DNA of 64,000 nucleotides from an uncultured Balneola sp. (GCA_913058495.1 CAJXQC010000003.1:1-64000); one strand, 5' to 3'. Positions 43,434 through 52,261 are shown, counted from the stretch's first letter. A program made the numbers and translations. Notes: generated by a model from the sequence alone, not told the origin.

Positions 43434-45971
43434 CTAAGCTGCTTGATCCCGTAATATTTCCAAAGGCGGGCGTGTGTGAATTCCTCTGGTATTCAATAAC
43501 CCGATGGTGAGAACCAAACCAATTAGAATTAGTGTCTCAATTCCCAGAATGGCAAAATTCGGTACAAAGTCGATATCAAAATAGAAGTACCCTAACAGAG
43601 CGCTGGCTCCAACAGAAAGAGTGAGACCGGTTAGAGCTGCCATGATTCCCAGAAATACATATTCAATGACCTGTATTTTGATAACCTGCTTTTGTTTGGC
43701 TCCCAATGTCCTTAATAAAACAGCTTCTCGTATTCTTTGATATCTGCTGGTTGCAGCCGAACCGGCCAGCACGATCAAACCCGTAATAATGCTGAACAAA
43801 CCAATGAACTGTATCACAAATGTAATTTTATCTATGAAATCACGAACGGTTTCAAGTACTTGTCCTATATCAATTGCAGATACATTCGGGTAAGCCTGAA
43901 CGATTTTTTGCTGTAATTCTAAAGAAGCCTCTCTGCTTGGAGTATTTAATGTTGTTGCAAAAAATTGTGGAGCAGGTTCAAGTACTCCTGTTGGGAAAAC
44001 CACGAAGAAATTAGGTTGCGGTGTTTGCCAATCAACAGTTCTTGTTCCAGCGATAAAGCTGGAAATTGGAATTCCCTGAACATCCCAAATTAAGGTGTCG
44101 CCAACCTGAGCATTTAAATCACTCATTAAATCAGTGGAGACAGAAATAGGAACAAGGTCTTCCGGATCTGTAACGGTTCCTATAAATGTGCCGGAATCTA
44201 CGGTCTCAGTAGAAATCAGAGAATCTCTGTAAGTAGATCGGTATTCGCGATTCAACGCCCAGCTTCTTGGTTTACGACTGGAATCAGCCATAAACTCGGC
44301 AACGGTAGTATCATTAATGGATTGCAAGCGCATAGTTACAATGGGCACATTTTGAAGCAGCTCCATGTCATTATCCAGAATGATCTTGTTTACGCCTTCA
44401 TTCTGATCGTACTGAATATCGTAAAGTGCAAGGTTTGGAAGATCCTGACCATCATCGAAATTAATGGTTCCCAAAAGCATGTCCTGCGTCAGATAAAGAG
44501 AACTTATTAATGTTACTCCCAGTCCAAAAGTGAGAAGTAAGGTAGAGGTTTGGTTATTCGGGCGATACAGGTTTGCCAACCCCTGTCTGAATTCATAACC
44601 AAAAGATTTAGGGTTAAACTTCTGTGCTCCTTTCATTATTAAAAAAGCAATTCCTGATAATAACAAAAGACAGAAAACGAGCCCGAGAGTAAAGAAAATA
44701 GCTGCTAGAATATCATTTAGCATTAACCAAGCATATCCAACTACAGAGATACCAATCAAACCAAATAAAGAGAACCTTGTTATCCAGCTAAGGAGTTTGG
44801 AAAGGTTTATATCAACAGAACGAAGAGTAAAAAGAGGAGATATTTTGCGAACGGCGAGCAACGGAAAAAGGGCAAAAATCAGAGAAATGGAGACCCCAGT
44901 AATTATTCCAATAAAAATTGAACTCCATGAGAGTGCTAACTCTATATCAACGGGAACAAAATCTTGTACCAAAACAGGTAGATAAAGCTGAATCAATGAA
45001 CCAATAAAAGCACCGATTGAAGATCCTATAAATCCCATAAATACAGCCTGGATCAAATAAATACTCATTGCTTGATTGGATGACGCTCCAACACAGCGAA
45101 GTACAGCTACAGTACTTATCTTTTGTCGGATATAAACAAATATAGAGCTGGCAACACCAATCCCGCCGAGTAGCAATGCTATAAACCCAATCAAGTTCAG
45201 GAAGTTCGACAAATACAGGATAGCTTCGCCAACTTCTTCTTTTCGTTCGGCTACGTCATCATAACCAAAACGTACAGAATCGTTCATGGCATCCAGAGTC
45301 GCTTCCACAAGAATTGGATCTGTCCCTTCCGGATATTTTATATAGGAAATATATTCAAGCTGACTTCCGCGTTGAAGAAGTCCTGTTGCTTCGATGTTCT
45401 CTTTGGGAATATAAATTCTTGGACCAAAAAAAGAAGCAGCAACCGGTTGACCGGGAATTTCCTGTAAAGCTCCTGCAATTTCATATGTTAATAATCCGAT
45501 CTTAACAGAATCACCGGGTTGTAATCCGAACTGAAGTAAAATTGGTTCATCAACCAAAGCTCCTGCAGTTTTTTGAAAAGTTTCAGAAGCAGATTGAGGA
45601 TCGGTTTTAAGCTCGCCGTAATAAGGAAAATCGCCTTCCAAGGCAGTTATTTGAGAAAGTCTTGTAGTCCCTGATTTAGGGAAGTAAGCCATTGAAGTGA
45701 AACTTAAAGCATCCGAGCGTTCTCCACCTAAGGAATCGAGATAAGTCTCCAATTCGTCGTGGAACGGGGAATTTTTTTCAACTTCAAGATCGGCGCCAAG
45801 CAGTTCTTTTGATTGTTCATTTATACTATCATTGAGATTCTCTCTGAAGGAGCTGATCGCCACCTGAGCAGCTACACCAACGATTATAGCTGCCAGATAA
45901 AGAAATAATTTCTTTCTGTTGGAGCGGGAATCCCGCCATGCCATTTTAAAGATCCAGAATAATTTATTCAC
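43434..45971 (-). CDS. FtsX-like ABC transporter permease
   Basis: Two FtsX-type permease regions (ASSIFVYIRQKISTVAVLRCVGASSNQAMSIYLIQ; TSRYQRIREAVLLRTLGAKQKQVIKIQVIEY); overlaps ATPase gene by 4 bp. Confidence 0.9.
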   Translation of the reverse strand: MNKLFWIFKMAWRDSRSNRKKLFLYLAAIIVGVAAQVAISSFRENLNDSINEQSKELLGADLEVEKNSPFHDELETYLDSLGGERSDALSFTSMAYFPKSGTTRLSQITALEGDFPYYGELKTDPQSASETFQKTAGALVDEPILLQFGLQPGDSVKIGLLTYEIAGALQEIPGQPVAASFFGPRIYIPKENIEATGLLQRGSQLEYISYIKYPEGTDPILVEATLDAMNDSVRFGYDDVAERKEEVGEAILYLSNFLNLIGFIALLLGGIGVASSIFVYIRQKISTVAVLRCVGASSNQAMSIYLIQAVFMGFIGSSIGAFIGSLIQLYLPVLVQDFVPVDIELALSWSSIFIGIITGVSISLIFALFPLLAVRKISPLFTLRSVDINLSKLLSWITRFSLFGLIGISVVGYAWLMLNDILAAIFFTLGLVFCLLLLSGIAFLIMKGAQKFNPKSFGYEFRQGLANLYRPNNQTSTLLLTFGLGVTLISSLYLTQDMLLGTINFDDGQDLPNLALYDIQYDQNEGVNKIILDNDMELLQNVPIVTMRLQSINDTTVAEFMADSSRKPRSWALNREYRSTYRDSLISTETVDSGTFIGTVTDPEDLVPISVSTDLMSDLNAQVGDTLIWDVQGIPISSFIAGTRTVDWQTPQPNFFVVFPTGVLEPAPQFFATTLNTPSREASLELQQKIVQAYPNVSAIDIGQVLETVRDFIDKITFVIQFIGLFSIITGLIVLAGSAATSRYQRIREAVLLRTLGAKQKQVIKIQVIEYVFLGIMAALTGLTLSVGASALLGYFYFDIDFVPNFAILGIETLILIGLVLTIGLLNTRGIHTRPPLEILRDQAA

Positions 45972-46696
45972 GCTACAGCTTCCCCTGAAGATTTAAAGAC
46001 ATCAGAATCGACTTCTCCGTTTTTCAATTTTATTACCCGATCACATTTATCCGCAAGGTCAAGATCATGTGTAACCAGTACTAGTGTTGTGCCCTGTTTT
46101 CTGTTCAAGTCAAATATCAGATTTTCGATATGTTCACCTGTTTCAGAATCCAGATTCCCGGTTGGTTCATCAGCGAAAAGTATTTTCGGGTTATTAATAA
46201 AAGCTCTTGCTACTGCAACCCGTTGTTGTTCACCACCTGAGAGTTGGGTAGGGTAGTGATGGGAGCGTTCCCCTAATCCTACTTCTTCGAGAAGTTCTAT
46301 CGCTCGTTCACGAACCTGATTTGTCGCTTCGCCACGTAGCTCTAAAGGAACCATAACATTTTCAGCGGCTGTGAGGGTGGGAACTAACTGAAATGTTTGA
46401 AAAACGAATCCGACGTGTCGATTGCGAACTTCAGCTCTTTGGTCTTCATTGAGGGGTTTTAAATTGATTCCGTTTAGTGTGACATCTCCGGATGTAGGTT
46501 GATCTAATCCCGCAGATAATCCCAATAAAGTTGTTTTCCCACTTCCTGATGGTCCAACAATTGCGCAAGAGATACCTTCTTCAATTTCGAAAGTTACATT
46601 GTCCACAACGGTAAGTGTTTTGTCTCCGCTTTTAAATTGACGGGTTAAACTTTCCAGTTTTAAAATATGATTCACAAGTATGTATTTTTTTGTCAA
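45968..46696 (-). CDS. ABC transporter ATP-binding protein (LolD/YbbA-like)
   Basis: Walker A GPSGSGKTT, QLSGGEQQRVAVARAFINNPKILFADEPTGNLDSETG. Confidence 0.93.
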   Translation of the reverse strand: MTKKYILVNHILKLESLTRQFKSGDKTLTVVDNVTFEIEEGISCAIVGPSGSGKTTLLGLSAGLDQPTSGDVTLNGINLKPLNEDQRAEVRNRHVGFVFQTFQLVPTLTAAENVMVPLELRGEATNQVRERAIELLEEVGLGERSHHYPTQLSGGEQQRVAVARAFINNPKILFADEPTGNLDSETGEHIENLIFDLNRKQGTTLVLVTHDLDLADKCDRVIKLKNGEVDSDVFKSSGEAVA

Positions 46697-46843
46697 ATAA
46701 CATTCAACTAAGATATATTCATTCCAAGTTTTCAGGTTATTTTAATATTGGTTAAACATCCAAAAGGGGAACAAATCCGTACTCTTAGAATAGAAATAGT
46801 AGCATAGATACTAATTTCATTTAATAGGGTTTTCGGTTACGAA

Positions 46844-47266
46844 ATGTTGGCAAATAAGTTAGAAATAAATAAAAAGGATGAAAACTTGTCATCAAAGTTT
46901 AACATCGTTCTTATAGACCAGAACGAAATGTTGCTGGATCTATTGGATCATGAACTTACCAAGTACAAAGGCTTTTCAGTGACACATACTTCTAATGGCG
47001 CTGAGTTTTTAAATAGCAGTGAAGTTGAGCCTGATCTTATACTAATGGATATGATCATGGAAGGGGTAAATGGTATTGAATTAATAAAAAAAATTAAATC
47101 TGAGGATAGATTTGCTGAAACAAAGATCATAATCTTGTCCGAAAAACTTAATGAACCCGTTGTTGAGCAATTAAAATCATTAAATGTTCATGATGTTATT
47201 CAAAAGCCTGCTAACATAGGAGAAGTGCTTTTTAAGGTTAAAAGATCTGTAAGAGATCAGATTTAA
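46844..47266 (+). CDS. Single-domain response regulator (receiver only)
   Basis: NIVLIDQNEMLLDLLDHELTKY, PDLILMDMIMEGVNGIELIKKIK, IIILSEK, VIQKPANIGEVLFKVKR; no output domain. Confidence 0.88.
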   Translation: MLANKLEINKKDENLSSKFNIVLIDQNEMLLDLLDHELTKYKGFSVTHTSNGAEFLNSSEVEPDLILMDMIMEGVNGIELIKKIKSEDRFAETKIIILSEKLNEPVVEQLKSLNVHDVIQKPANIGEVLFKVKRSVRDQI

Positions 47267-47334
47267 CAGGGACTTATATTATCTATTCTGAATCACAAAT
47301 ACTTTTTTTACTGCTTCTTGTATCGGTTATAATT

Positions 47335-48384
47335 TTGGCAATCGGTGCTTACTTAGCATTGATGGTCATAATCTCAAGGTTTCTAACATTAAGGGACAAA
47401 AAAAAATATCGGTCCCTAAAAAACAAATATTCTACTCTTGTTTTTGAATCGATGAGAAACAACAAAGCTCGTGAAGGCTTATTCGAGTTGCTAAGAACGA
47501 AATCGAAGCACATTCCTATAGTAAAAGAAGTATGTACTGAGCTTTTAAGAGATGTTGGAGGTGAAACTAAAAACAGTGTTATAGAGATTTTAGAGCACCC
47601 TTTGATCAAAGATCATTATCTGAAGTACTTTAATAGTTATAATAAAAAAAGGAAAGTTAAGAGCCTTCTTTATTTCAGAAGTATTAAAACACTTCCGGAT
47701 GCGCAGGAATCTAGAGCGGTATCTCTACTTGATCATCGGTTACACTATTTGGCACATGCTAGTGCTTTGGTAATTTTAGCTTCTGCTAAAGATAATTTGC
47801 ATGAATCTGTTTTGATAAAAATGAGCAAAAGATCTGAGGATTGTAAGTTTACTTTTGTTGAGCTTTTATGGGAATACTGGGATAATGAATTTATATCCAA
47901 ACAAGATAAGTTTATTTGTTTTCAAGTTCTTTTGGGTTCAGAAGACATATCTGTTGAGATGAAAGCATTATTAGTTAGGATAATATCCAGCTTTAACGAA
48001 AAAGAGTTTTCTATTTACTTTCTTGATATTCTAAAATTCCTGATTGAGTTAGATTTACAAAAAAAACATTATCCTTTTATGGCTGCATTGATCAGTGCAT
48101 TAGGTAAATTTGATTTTAAAACAGCGGAAAAGGAGATAATAAAAGCAATATCAGTTGACAACAAATCGGTAAAAATAGCAGCAATAAGAGCTTTAATTAA
48201 ATTCAAAACTACCAGGGCAATTCAGGAATTAGCAACTATTTATAGTACTTCTAAAGGTTACTTAAAAAAAGAGATCAGTTATTTGATAGAACACGATTCG
48301 GATCTCTCGAAACTTATAATTGGATCAGAAGTTACAGTAAAAAATATTAAAGACACTGAACGAGAGCTTAATCATGATTTTTGA
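47335..48384 (+). CDS. HEAT-repeat-like protein with probable N-terminal TM helix (true start possibly upstream)
   Basis: Helical repeats such as AEKEIIKAISVDNKSVKIAAIRALIKFKTTRAIQELATIYSTSKGYLKKEISYLIEH; ORF track start is TTG; frame open back to 47242. Confidence 0.7.
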   Translation: MAIGAYLALMVIISRFLTLRDKKKYRSLKNKYSTLVFESMRNNKAREGLFELLRTKSKHIPIVKEVCTELLRDVGGETKNSVIEILEHPLIKDHYLKYFNSYNKKRKVKSLLYFRSIKTLPDAQESRAVSLLDHRLHYLAHASALVILASAKDNLHESVLIKMSKRSEDCKFTFVELLWEYWDNEFISKQDKFICFQVLLGSEDISVEMKALLVRIISSFNEKEFSIYFLDILKFLIELDLQKKHYPFMAALISALGKFDFKTAEKEIIKAISVDNKSVKIAAIRALIKFKTTRAIQELATIYSTSKGYLKKEISYLIEHDSDLSKLIIGSEVTVKNIKDTERELNHDF

Positions 48385-49879
48385 AACCATCTTATTTTCA
48401 AGTTTTATTGATTCATTCAGCGATTTTGTTCTTGTATATTTTACTGCAATAAATGGATTTTATCTAACATTGGTAATAATCTCATTCTTTTATTTGAAGC
48501 TATTTAATCGGCAGAGAATAGCTTATGAGAGTAAAGGATTAATGAAGTCTGATCTTTATAAATCTGTCACAATTATTGTACCTGCATATAATGAAGAAAA
48601 AAATATTATTGAGAATGTGAGGTCATTAATGCAGGTAGACTTCAACGATTTTGAAGTTATAGTATCGAATGATGGCAGTACCGACGATACGCTCCAAAAG
48701 CTAATAGACGAATATGAGTTAGAGGAGTCAGATCTCTTTGTACCTAAAGGATTGAATTCAAAACCGATAAAAAAAGTATATAGATCAGGAATACACAACA
48801 ATCTGATTGTTCTTGATAAAGACAATGGTTCAAGAGCCGATGCTGTAAATGCTGCTATTAACATAGCTCATAAAGATCTGATCTGTACTATTGATGCAGA
48901 TTCCTGGCTTGAACAAAATGTACTTCGAAAAATGTTGAGAGCATTTATTGAGGATGATAAAACTATAGGGGTTGGGGGAATTATTCGGGTATCAAATGGA
49001 TGTGAGTTTGAGAATAATACAATGAAGGAGATTAAACTCCCCAAAAAATTGGTTTCAAAAATGCAGGTTTTGGAATATATAAGATCGTTTCTATTTGGAA
49101 GAATTGGATGGGATCAATTAAATAGCTTATTAATTATTTCAGGAGCATTTGGCGTTTTTGACAGAGAAGCAGTGCTAAAAGTAGGAGGTTATGATGTGGA
49201 GTCAATTGGTGAGGATTTCGAACTTACGTTAAGACTTCATAGACATTATAAAGAAGAGGGAATAGATTATAACATTCGTTTTTTCCCGGAACCTGTTTGT
49301 TGGACAGAAGTTCCGGCTACTTGGAATGAGCTTTCAAGTCAGAGGAACAGGTGGCAAAGAGGTCTTTTTGAAACTTTGGTTAAACATAAAAAAATGATTT
49401 TTAACCCTAAATATGGTTCAGTTGGGTTAATAGGTTTGCCTTTCTATCTCATTTTTGAATTGTTATCACCCGTAGTAGAATTTCTGGGTTATGCTTTGGT
49501 ACTGTTTCTGTTGATGACAGCAACATTGAATACTTCATTTGCACTACTGTTTTTTATCGCGGCTGTACTACTGGGAGTGGTGCTTTCCCTGAGCGCTGTT
49601 CTTTCTGATGAGTTTACCTATAAACAATATCCCAAAGTTAAAGATGCGCTACAGTTGATAGGCTTGGCAGTATTTGAGAATTTGGGATATCGTCAACTCC
49701 ATACCTGGTGGAGACTCAAAGGGATGTTTCATTATTTGAGAGGTAATAAGAATTGGGATTTAAAAGAAAGTGGTCTTTGGAAAAAAATTACAGAAGTCAC
49801 TCACTGGATATGGTTAGTGGTTATAAATGTTATAATTGCATTTTTATTTTGGTTTGGAATCAACGGAGTAGGATTATGA
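48374..49879 (+). CDS. Membrane-bound family 2 glycosyltransferase (PgaC/IcaA/NfrB-like)
   Basis: VTIIVPAYNEEKNIIENVRSL, VIVSNDGSTDDT, CTIDADSW, ISGAFGVFDREAVLKVGGYDVESIGEDFELTLRLHRH, QRNRWQRGLFETL, C-terminal TM helices. Confidence 0.93.
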   Translation: MIFETILFSSFIDSFSDFVLVYFTAINGFYLTLVIISFFYLKLFNRQRIAYESKGLMKSDLYKSVTIIVPAYNEEKNIIENVRSLMQVDFNDFEVIVSNDGSTDDTLQKLIDEYELEESDLFVPKGLNSKPIKKVYRSGIHNNLIVLDKDNGSRADAVNAAINIAHKDLICTIDADSWLEQNVLRKMLRAFIEDDKTIGVGGIIRVSNGCEFENNTMKEIKLPKKLVSKMQVLEYIRSFLFGRIGWDQLNSLLIISGAFGVFDREAVLKVGGYDVESIGEDFELTLRLHRHYKEEGIDYNIRFFPEPVCWTEVPATWNELSSQRNRWQRGLFETLVKHKKMIFNPKYGSVGLIGLPFYLIFELLSPVVEFLGYALVLFLLMTATLNTSFALLFFIAAVLLGVVLSLSAVLSDEFTYKQYPKVKDALQLIGLAVFENLGYRQLHTWWRLKGMFHYLRGNKNWDLKESGLWKKITEVTHWIWLVVINVIIAFLFWFGINGVGL

Positions 49880-50655
49880 GAAAATTATTTCTTCAAATAT
49901 TCATAATGGCTCTGGTGTCTTTTTCTGCATTTGCTCAATCAGATACTGAATTTAGCAACTCTATATCTATTTCAGATGAATACGTTTTTGTAGAGGGAAT
50001 CGATAATTGGAATATTGTGCAGTTGGGATATGAAAGGAGGATGAATTCTTTAACTCTGATTTCAAGACTTCAATATGCTGATAGGTTAGGACAGAATGGG
50101 ACATTCTTATCTTTTATCGGTTATCCTGAATTTTCTGAGAATTCGTATGGATATGTGAACCTTGGTTTTTCACCTGATAATTCCAACCTTTTTCCTGAGT
50201 TGAGATTTTCGTCCGCTTTTTACCACTCAGTTACTGATCAGCTAGTTGGTGGAGCCGGGTTCCAATACACAAAAGTACCGGGAGAGGATGCGTTTGTCGC
50301 AAATATATATGCTAATTATTACTTCGGGAATTATCTGCTTTTGATCAGACCTTCTTATTTAATTGATGACTCGAACAGTTCGTTTTCAGGCGCAGTATCA
50401 CTACGGAGATACTATAATTCAGCAAAAAGCTACGGGGAATTTTTAATAGGAGCAGGCAGGAGTATAGAAAATTCTACTTTAGAAGATGCCTTTCAGCAAA
50501 CTTACCTGAACAGAATAGCCGCTTTGAAACTAGATCACTCACTTTCGGATGAATGGTCTCTTCAAAGTTCATTAACTTTAAGCCGAAATGATTTTTCAAG
50601 TGGAACGGAAAGAAATCAGTTTGGAGTTCGTTTAGGAGTTACAAGAAATTTTTAA
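49876..50655 (+). CDS. YaiO-like outer-membrane beta-barrel protein
   Basis: Signal peptide MRKLFLQIFIMALVSFSAFAQ; NIVQLGYERRMNSLTLISRLQYADRLGQNGTFLSFIGYPEF...; ATGA overlap with GT2; terminal aromatic GVTRNF. Confidence 0.78.
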   Translation: MRKLFLQIFIMALVSFSAFAQSDTEFSNSISISDEYVFVEGIDNWNIVQLGYERRMNSLTLISRLQYADRLGQNGTFLSFIGYPEFSENSYGYVNLGFSPDNSNLFPELRFSSAFYHSVTDQLVGGAGFQYTKVPGEDAFVANIYANYYFGNYLLLIRPSYLIDDSNSSFSGAVSLRRYYNSAKSYGEFLIGAGRSIENSTLEDAFQQTYLNRIAALKLDHSLSDEWSLQSSLTLSRNDFSSGTERNQFGVRLGVTRNF

Positions 50656-50666
50656 AAGTTGAAAGC

Positions 50667-51290
50667 GTGAGAATGAAATCAATAGTACTTACAATAGTTT
50701 TGTCTGTTTTGATGTGTATTAGTTTAGAAGCTCAGCAGAAAAAGTCGATCTTGTTTTTTGGAGACAGCATCTCAGCGGGATATGGCATTCAGCCTCAACA
50801 AGCATTCCCGGCTGTCATTCAGGATAAGATAGATTCTTTGGGTTTGAATTACGAAGTGATCAACGGTGGATTGAGTGGCGAGACTTCGGCAGGCGGTTTA
50901 AGACGGATCAATTGGGTTTTACAAAGAAATATCGACATAATGATCCTTGAATTGGGAGGAAATGATGGACTTCGGGGTATAGATCTTTCATCAACAAAAG
51001 ATAATCTTCAGCAAATTATAGATCGAGCTAAGGCAAAAAATCCGGAGATCGAGATCATAATTGCCGGAATGCAGGTTCCTCCTAATCTGGGAACAGACTA
51101 TACTAAGGAATTTCAGGATCTGTATCCGGAACTGGCTGAGAAGAATAATCTCACCTTGATCCCTTTAATTCTGGACGAAGTAGGAGGGAGAGATGAATTC
51201 ATGCAGCCCGATCAAATTCACCCAAATGTGAAAGGACATAAAGTTGTTGCTGAAACTGTTTGGGAAACGCTAAAGCCATTTTTAGATTAA
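50667..51290 (+). CDS. TesA-like arylesterase / SGNH hydrolase
   Basis: ILFFGDSISAGYGI, NGGLSGETSAGG, LELGGNDGLRG, DQIHPNVKGH. Confidence 0.92.
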   Translation: MRMKSIVLTIVLSVLMCISLEAQQKKSILFFGDSISAGYGIQPQQAFPAVIQDKIDSLGLNYEVINGGLSGETSAGGLRRINWVLQRNIDIMILELGGNDGLRGIDLSSTKDNLQQIIDRAKAKNPEIEIIIAGMQVPPNLGTDYTKEFQDLYPELAEKNNLTLIPLILDEVGGRDEFMQPDQIHPNVKGHKVVAETVWETLKPFLD

Positions 51291-51370: not shown

Positions 51371-52261
51371 ATGAAAAAAATACTTTTCTTTCTTCTTCTT
51401 CTTCTTTCACCTTTTGGAATAGAAGCTCAAGACTCAACATTAAACTACCAACCTAAGATCTTGTTGATAACAGCACATCCCGATGATGATGCTCTTTTTT
51501 CTGCCACAATTTGGAAAACGACAAGGTTGTTGGGAGGAACTGTTGATCTTGCACTTATGACGAATGGAGAAGGTGGTTACAAATACTCTACTTTGGGAAA
51601 TTATATTTACGGTAAAGATCTGGATGAAGAAGAAGTTGGAAGAGATTACTTACCCGGCATCAGAAAAAAAGAGCTGATGGCAGGTGGTGATGTTGTTGGG
51701 ATCAGGAATTATTTCTTTTTCGATCAGCAAGACTTCTACTATACACAGGATATAGAGGAAACCTTAGAAAAGTGGGACACCGAAAGTGTAGAAGCAAGAT
51801 TAGCTGATATTATGAAAGAGGAAGAATATGATTTTGTATTCATGATGTTGCCTTTTCATGGTAATCACGGACATCATAAAGCAGCTACTTTACTTGGATT
51901 AAGAGCGATTAAATCTCTTCCTGAAACTGAGCGGCCGATAGCTTTGCCATCTTTTGTAAGAAGACATGCTGAGGATGAAAGCATAGATTTTGGAATGATG
52001 GAAGGATATCCGATTACTAAAGTAAAGCCTGATATCCTGTTCGAATTTGACAGAAATCAAAAATTCGGGTTTGATGACCGGCTTGATTACAACATCATTG
52101 CAAACTGGGTTATTGCTGAACATAAAAGTCAGGGTACTATGCAGTTATTGATGAGAAATGGAGTAATCGAACAATATTGGTTTGCTGAATTAAATAGTGA
52201 TGATGACCTTGACAAAACCCGAAAGTTCTTCGAGGTCATAAATACTGTTCAACCTGACTAA
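51371..52261 (+). CDS. Exported PIG-L/LmbE-family deacetylase
   Basis: Signal peptide MKKILFFLLLLLSPFGIEAQ; LLITAHPDDDALFSATI; MLPFHGNHGHHKAATLLGLRA. Confidence 0.92.
   Translation: MKKILFFLLLLLSPFGIEAQDSTLNYQPKILLITAHPDDDALFSATIWKTTRLLGGTVDLALMTNGEGGYKYSTLGNYIYGKDLDEEEVGRDYLPGIRKKELMAGGDVVGIRNYFFFDQQDFYYTQDIEETLEKWDTESVEARLADIMKEEEYDFVFMMLPFHGNHGHHKAATLLGLRAIKSLPETERPIALPSFVRRHAEDESIDFGMMEGYPITKVKPDILFEFDRNQKFGFDDRLDYNIIANWVIAEHKSQGTMQLLMRNGVIEQYWFAELNSDDDLDKTRKFFEVINTVQPD

Follow-up and report, generated by a model that had tools for sequence, protein, structure and literature searches.

A four-gene cassette on the plus strand of a 64,000-nt stretch of DNA (the window) from an uncultured Balneola sp. 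(GCA_913058495.1, CAJXQC010000003.1:1-64000) is presented here as a candidate synthase-dependent exopolysaccharide system. Its four consecutive open reading frames (ORFs) encode, in this order, a receiver, a HEAT-repeat protein, a family-2 glycosyltransferase (GT2) and a YaiO-family barrel. This layout, given in a preliminary description made from the sequence, was confirmed by ORF and Pfam checks, as were the 11 bp shared by the HEAT and GT2 frames (48374-48384) and the ATGA shared by the GT2 and YaiO frames (49876-49879). With a probability of about 0.6, the cassette belongs to a family of synthase-dependent systems defined by an obligate HEAT partner, in which the synthase is held and controlled by a HEAT-receiver module. 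Synthesis and export of a polymer by the cassette are considered probable, and control of GT2 by contact, via HEAT and the receiver, is slightly favoured.

The grouping of these genes is far beyond chance. With the window HEAT protein as query, 13 more copies came up in 10 further genomes from the order; all of them adjoin a GT2 of this kind, and a receiver accompanies nearly every one. A phylum search with a HEAT profile, in which generic HEAT proteins enter below E ~1e-15, was replaced by one with a GT2 profile, and the GTDB genome collection was searched with the GT2 alignment (449 relatives returned, 80 loci kept). The HEAT gene was found immediately upstream of GT2 in 91 of 103 loci; the other 12 consist of five loci cut by contig ends, two from Nitrospira in which HEAT occupies another position of the locus, one ORF-calling overlap and four loci (L055, L081, L102 and L103) in which HEAT and GT2 form a single polypeptide. 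L058, likewise tried as a fusion, was rejected: the ORF had been extended out of frame, and HEAT has its own ORF in that locus. Among Bacteroidota loci picked by GT2 score alone, HEAT lies upstream in 30 of the 30 best and in 19 of 20 weaker ones, the single exception having a broken or cut GT2 frame. Where at least 4 kb were available on both sides (86 loci), HEAT is directly upstream of GT2 in 84, and a same-strand receiver occurs within 4 kb in 73, as against an estimated chance expectation of somewhat less than 10% of loci (42 receivers per 3.4 Mb). The synteny search that the preliminary description had proposed as a check thus came out in its favour, with the set conserved in Bacteroidota and beyond. 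GT2 was detected at E <1e-80 in about a quarter of evenly drawn Bacteroidota genomes (71/299), and 17 named phyla, haloarchaea among them, are represented in the GT2 tree. This tree mostly tracks phyla, with 24 label changes against a minimum of 16 (several rows being metagenome bins), which suggests that the family is old and has undergone some transfer.

The window GT2 possesses all catalytic residues of processive synthases, namely D100, DAD at 174-176, ED at 280-281 and QRNRW at 323-327, in columns that are 97-100% conserved across an alignment of 103 family members. There is one transmembrane segment at the N-terminus and three or more at the C-terminus, and the enzyme is predicted to be processive. 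The best curated NCBIfam match is PgaC/IcaA (TIGR03937), at 140 bits and hence far below the cut-off of 422.3. The identities amount to 26% with PgaC, 27% with YaiP over 228 aa, 23.5% with NfrB over 119 aa and 19.5% with BcsA, and in the tree PgaC and YaiP sit on terminal branches of ~8 changes per column. Membership of GT2 in the NfrB, PgaC, YaiP or BcsA families was rejected on these scores and identities, so that the second circumstance named as refuting the preliminary description, a GT2 from a known polysaccharide pathway such as NfrB/N4, did not arise.

Likeness to known systems was also assessed at the level of whole loci. PgaABCD (IcaADBC in Gram-positives) shares with the cassette a processive-type membrane GT2, a small membrane partner of the synthase and, in many cassette relatives, a TPR-bearing outer-membrane barrel, whereas the cassette has a HEAT-receiver pair in place of PgaD and no PgaB-like gene, and no machinery for cyclic di-GMP (c-di-GMP) was found in the window genome; HEAT and receiver are absent from the E. 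coli pga locus. In E. coli yaiO-yaiX-yaiP-yaiS, a YaiO-family barrel, a GT2 and a PIG-L-type deacetylase likewise lie close together, but there is no HEAT or receiver gene, and the window PIG-L gene is located outside the cassette. The open-licence literature yielded no functional study of these genes. NfrA-NfrB also combines a membrane GT2 with an outer-membrane exporter and an incompletely defined polymer (PMC8669472), NfrB being under c-di-GMP control via its own MshEN-like domain (PMC8669472); its similarity to the window GT2 stops short of full length, and the nfrAB locus is devoid of HEAT and receiver, with the neighbouring cusRS as the sole two-component genes. Cellulose synthase BcsABCZ resembles the cassette in the D,D,ED,QxxRW motifs of GT2 and in the logic of synthase, regulator, hydrolase and TPR-barrel, and differs in that neither a PilZ domain nor BcsB was matched in the window genome. 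That the cassette is a diverged version of a known system, whether the one for poly-N-acetylglucosamine (PNAG; PgaC), the one for the N4-receptor glycan (NfrB) or that of E. coli YaiP/YaiO, is therefore very unlikely: the identities to PgaC and YaiP and the presence of a YaiO barrel with a PIG-L gene nearby speak for it, but the bit score and tree branches, the short NfrB match, the missing BcsB, PilZ and GGDEF matches, the position of PIG-L and the lack of HEAT and receiver in all three E. coli loci speak against it. The mismatch with the cellulose, PNAG and Wzy systems stressed in the preliminary description was right as far as gene families are concerned; the overall architecture (synthase, regulator, often TPR-bearing barrel and periplasmic enzymes) is nevertheless that of synthase-dependent systems. 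A set of HEAT, receiver, GT2 and YaiO was not found described in the open-licence literature, an absence that is weak evidence.

The YaiO barrel, the sole copy in the window genome, reaches 105.9 bits with TIGR04390 (cut-off 32). Its start was placed at ATG 49876 instead of the TTG 49753 assigned by mechanical ORF calling, because the overlap with GT2 is the ATGA at 49876-49879. The AlphaFold2 model (mean predicted local distance difference test, pLDDT, 88.8) contains 14 long strands, and Foldseek returned OmpG (TM score 0.68) and, at rank 3, PgaA (PDB 4y25; TM score 0.57), both at E <1e-7. Since barrel folds are alike, these model-based matches support a pore and no more than that. YaiO is present in 43 of the 86 loci, where it is frequently fused to TPR repeats, and in none of the 20 monoderm or archaeal loci, a pattern that fits an outer-membrane pore. 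Alternatively, GT2 might not be a polymerase and might transfer a single sugar, or a few, onto a lipid or an acceptor at the surface, as in glycolipid or lipopolysaccharide modification, with YaiO as a general porin or anchor. OmpC and OmpG near the top of the Foldseek list agree with this; yet the Q-x-x-R-W and ED motifs are conserved as in processive synthases, PgaC/IcaA is the best curated match even if far under its cut-off, and TPR-barrels, glycoside hydrolase (GH)-like proteins and sulfatase-superfamily partners recur, so that this alternative is rated quite unlikely.

For the HEAT protein, no ATG, GTG or TTG start in the frame (47242-47335) preserves the whole membrane helix, and TTG 47335, the first common start codon, would cut this helix by half. 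The likeliest start is ATT 47278, which gives 368 aa and not 349, because the copy of the congeneric genome G003 aligns there and the first helix of the AlphaFold2 model is of high confidence. A single transmembrane helix spans residues 8-26. The model (mean pLDDT 93.4) has one 56-residue helix (residues 5-60) followed by 18 solenoid helices, with artificial alphaRep and armadillo (ARM) solenoids as the nearest folds in Foldseek, and would fit the membrane-tethered scaffold that had been proposed for this protein. Positive residues come after the membrane helix, which suggests that the solenoid is cytoplasmic. Larger HEAT partners with an extra region past the solenoid were seen at L227:1848-4427 (859 aa) and L223:5548-7629 (693 aa).

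Further genes accompany the set in relatives. A sulfatase-superfamily protein adjoins GT2 in several loci, and at L218:2437-5874 (minus strand) GT2 and a sulfatase-superfamily domain are joined in one 1145-aa protein, a fusion which suggests decoration of the polymer by a phospho- or sulfo-transferase-like enzyme. GH72-like secreted proteins occur in 19 of the 86 loci and are carried by most of the 20 monoderm or archaeal ones. This family of secreted proteins of 700-1130 aa (alignment A4; L093:6509-8734, L033:5865-7988, L048:11385-14654, L068:12872-15199 and others) is found chiefly in monoderm and archaeal loci and gave one weak GH72 match and otherwise no Pfam family; a BcsB-like nature of the secreted protein (F5) was considered and rejected, there being no Pfam or PDB match apart from the weak GH72 one. 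The gene order in Paenibacillus is GH72-like protein, HEAT, GT2, receiver and UDP-sugar dehydrogenase, with a second GH-like protein in several cases, and hints at a uronic-acid polymer. One such version (L093:6509-14703) has a receiver with Glu at the phospho-site and a GH-like protein after the UDP-sugar dehydrogenase. The periplasmic and extracellular partners, i.e. sulfatase-superfamily, TPR-YaiO and GH72-like proteins and UDP-sugar dehydrogenase, are typical of synthase-dependent systems and favour assignment of the cassette to them.

With regard to export, the contact between receiver, HEAT and GT2, the direction and chemistry of control, and the sugar, we infer the following scheme. At the inner membrane, GT2 would build a chain from a nucleotide sugar and thread it to the other side; in diderms the chain would then cross the outer membrane by way of the YaiO barrel, TPR-bearing in many relatives. 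Tethered by its one N-terminal helix and with its solenoid in the cytoplasm, the HEAT protein would hold the synthase and dock the receiver. The receiver, alone here and C-terminal in larger signalling proteins elsewhere, some with GGDEF, would set the times at which HEAT-GT2 is active, perhaps through phosphorylation of its aspartate.

Several points weigh against a synthase-dependent system under HEAT-receiver control; they concern the parts list, the receiver and the sampling. The parts typical of such systems are an inner-membrane synthase, a c-di-GMP-binding domain or co-polymerase, periplasmic modifying enzymes, and a periplasmic TPR with an outer-membrane pore (PMC7112194); five synthase-dependent polysaccharides were counted in this 2020 survey, in which a c-di-GMP-binding element is a typical part (PMC7112194). 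By its conserved motifs and transmembrane segments, GT2 would represent the synthase. GGDEF and PilZ gave no match in the window genome or three congeners, in searches that detected the positive controls, and BcsB gave none across the window genome, so that the lack of PilZ reported earlier for the window extends to the whole genome; the place of the c-di-GMP element is taken by HEAT and receiver. The window cassette itself contains neither a modifying enzyme nor a hydrolase, while sulfatase-superfamily and GH-like genes are present in many relatives, and its 14-strand barrel comes without the TPR domain seen in the TPR-YaiO proteins of relatives. Structurally, this barrel resembles general porins (OmpG, OmpC) as well as PgaA. 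As the definition of PMC7112194 reads "typically", the cassette could by analogy be said to work like a synthase-dependent system without being a formal member.

The receiver exceeds its PF00072 cut-off (68.5 against 30.2 bits), and in 64 of 66 family receivers the domain finishes at most 15 aa from the protein C-terminus. The pocket of the window copy consists of D25, Q26, the phospho-acceptor D69, S99 and K121, with the second acidic residue replaced by Gln; this position is other than Asp in 17 of the 66, window copy included, and the phospho-site itself holds Asp in 52 cases and Glu in the other 14. The phospho-switch proposed in the preliminary description is weakened by these substitutions, although most family members keep the Asp. 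Because the phospho-Asp is Glu in 14 of 66, the receiver may merely dock rather than switch. Phosphorylation-independent docking could tie HEAT-GT2 to an upstream signalling protein or scaffold, with control coming from elsewhere, in some lineages from a GGDEF domain of the same polypeptide. Such an arrangement would be in line with the substituted pockets and with the fused receivers of other loci, which form the C-terminal domain of Hpt-REC-GGDEF-REC, HTH-REC-GGDEF-REC or ODP-GGDEF-REC proteins. It is considered unlikely, however, given that Asp is kept in 52 and Lys in 65 of the 66 and that histidine-kinase genes cluster near 27 loci, GAF- and PAS-histidine kinases adjoining several. At L102:6562-8574, an ODP beta-lactamase-fold sensor with GGDEF and a C-terminal receiver lies immediately upstream of the HEAT-GT2 fusion, and L017 encodes a receiver-PglZ protein. 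Furthermore, the window genome has 42 receiver matches, two-component genes being common, and the operon position of the receiver differs among loci, hence it may regulate something else. Finally, the loci are partly redundant, some being from the same genera, and ORFs were called mechanically, which may hide or invent genes in GC-rich loci; the locus counts are descriptive.

The four genes occupy a single site as a unit (Table 1), and in relatives this site is empty. Homology to the empty site of the relative G007 breaks off at 46675 and resumes near 50707, and the genes for a YbbA-like ATPase and a TesA-like protein are adjacent in ~17 relatives, with a gap of ~110 bp in the closest ones. 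Precisely four genes intervene between them in the window genome and in G003. Within the genus, eight genomes were sampled and the cassette is present in two; gain in the ancestor of the carriers or loss in the other congeners may account for this pattern, both fitting it equally. The YbbP/YbbA-like ABC transporter genes (43434-46696) and the TesA-like gene (50667-51290) are divergent, and their order is kept in ~17 relatives. With E. coli yaiO-yaiX-yaiP-yaiS in mind, the PIG-L deacetylase and the TesA-like SGNH hydrolase were tried as cassette members and rejected: both are placed outside the unit because the empty-site homology resumes near 50707 and the flanks adjoin in cassette-free relatives, where both are native neighbours. 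A defence-system reading was rejected as well, PADLOC having given merely a weak receiver match.

Table 1. Cassette genes, approximate cassette extent and flanking genes in the window.
Feature	Coordinates	Strand	Evidence and remarks
Stand-alone receiver domain (REC), 140 aa, no output domain	46844..47266	+	Pfam PF00072 Response_reg, E 7e-19
Membrane-anchored HEAT-repeat protein, ~368 aa	47278..48384	+	HEAT_2 PF13646, E 7.5e-9; probable ATT start
Inner-membrane family-2 glycosyltransferase, 501 aa	48374..49879	+	PF00535 Glycos_transf_2, E 2.7e-22; PF13641
YaiO-family outer-membrane beta-barrel, 259 aa, N-terminal signal helix	49876..50655	+	PF19413, E 1.4e-32
Cassette, approximate extent between ybbA and tesA	46676..50706	+	Borders are homology ends against the empty site of relative G007
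Left flank, outside cassette: YbbP-like permease	43434-45971		With YbbA-like ATPase
Left flank, outside cassette: YbbA-like ABC ATPase	45968..46696	-	Adjoins tesA in relatives without cassette
Right flank, outside cassette: TesA-like SGNH hydrolase	50667..51290	+	PRK10528, 143.9 bits, under cut-off 270; adjoins ybbA in cassette-free relatives
Right flank, outside cassette: PIG-L deacetylase	51371-52261		After TesA-like gene

In the widest interpretation, which is put forward tentatively and at a little less than even odds, the cassette represents an unrecognised, old and very widespread synthase-dependent class of bacteria and haloarchaea. In this class, the synthase would be controlled by a module made up of a receiver and an obligate HEAT solenoid tethered to the membrane, and this module would replace the c-di-GMP sensors of the cellulose, PNAG and alginate systems, the receiver being wired to a diguanylate cyclase in some lineages and to phosphorelay alone in others, such as the GGDEF-free window genome. 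If true, the family would be among the commonest uncharacterised surface-polymer systems, given its occurrence in 71 of 299 Bacteroidota genomes and about 17 phyla, and would provide a direct route from two-component signals to the synthase in organisms without c-di-GMP signalling. Moreover, YaiO, an orphan outer-membrane protein of E. coli, would gain a role that can be put to the test, that of a pore for polysaccharides.

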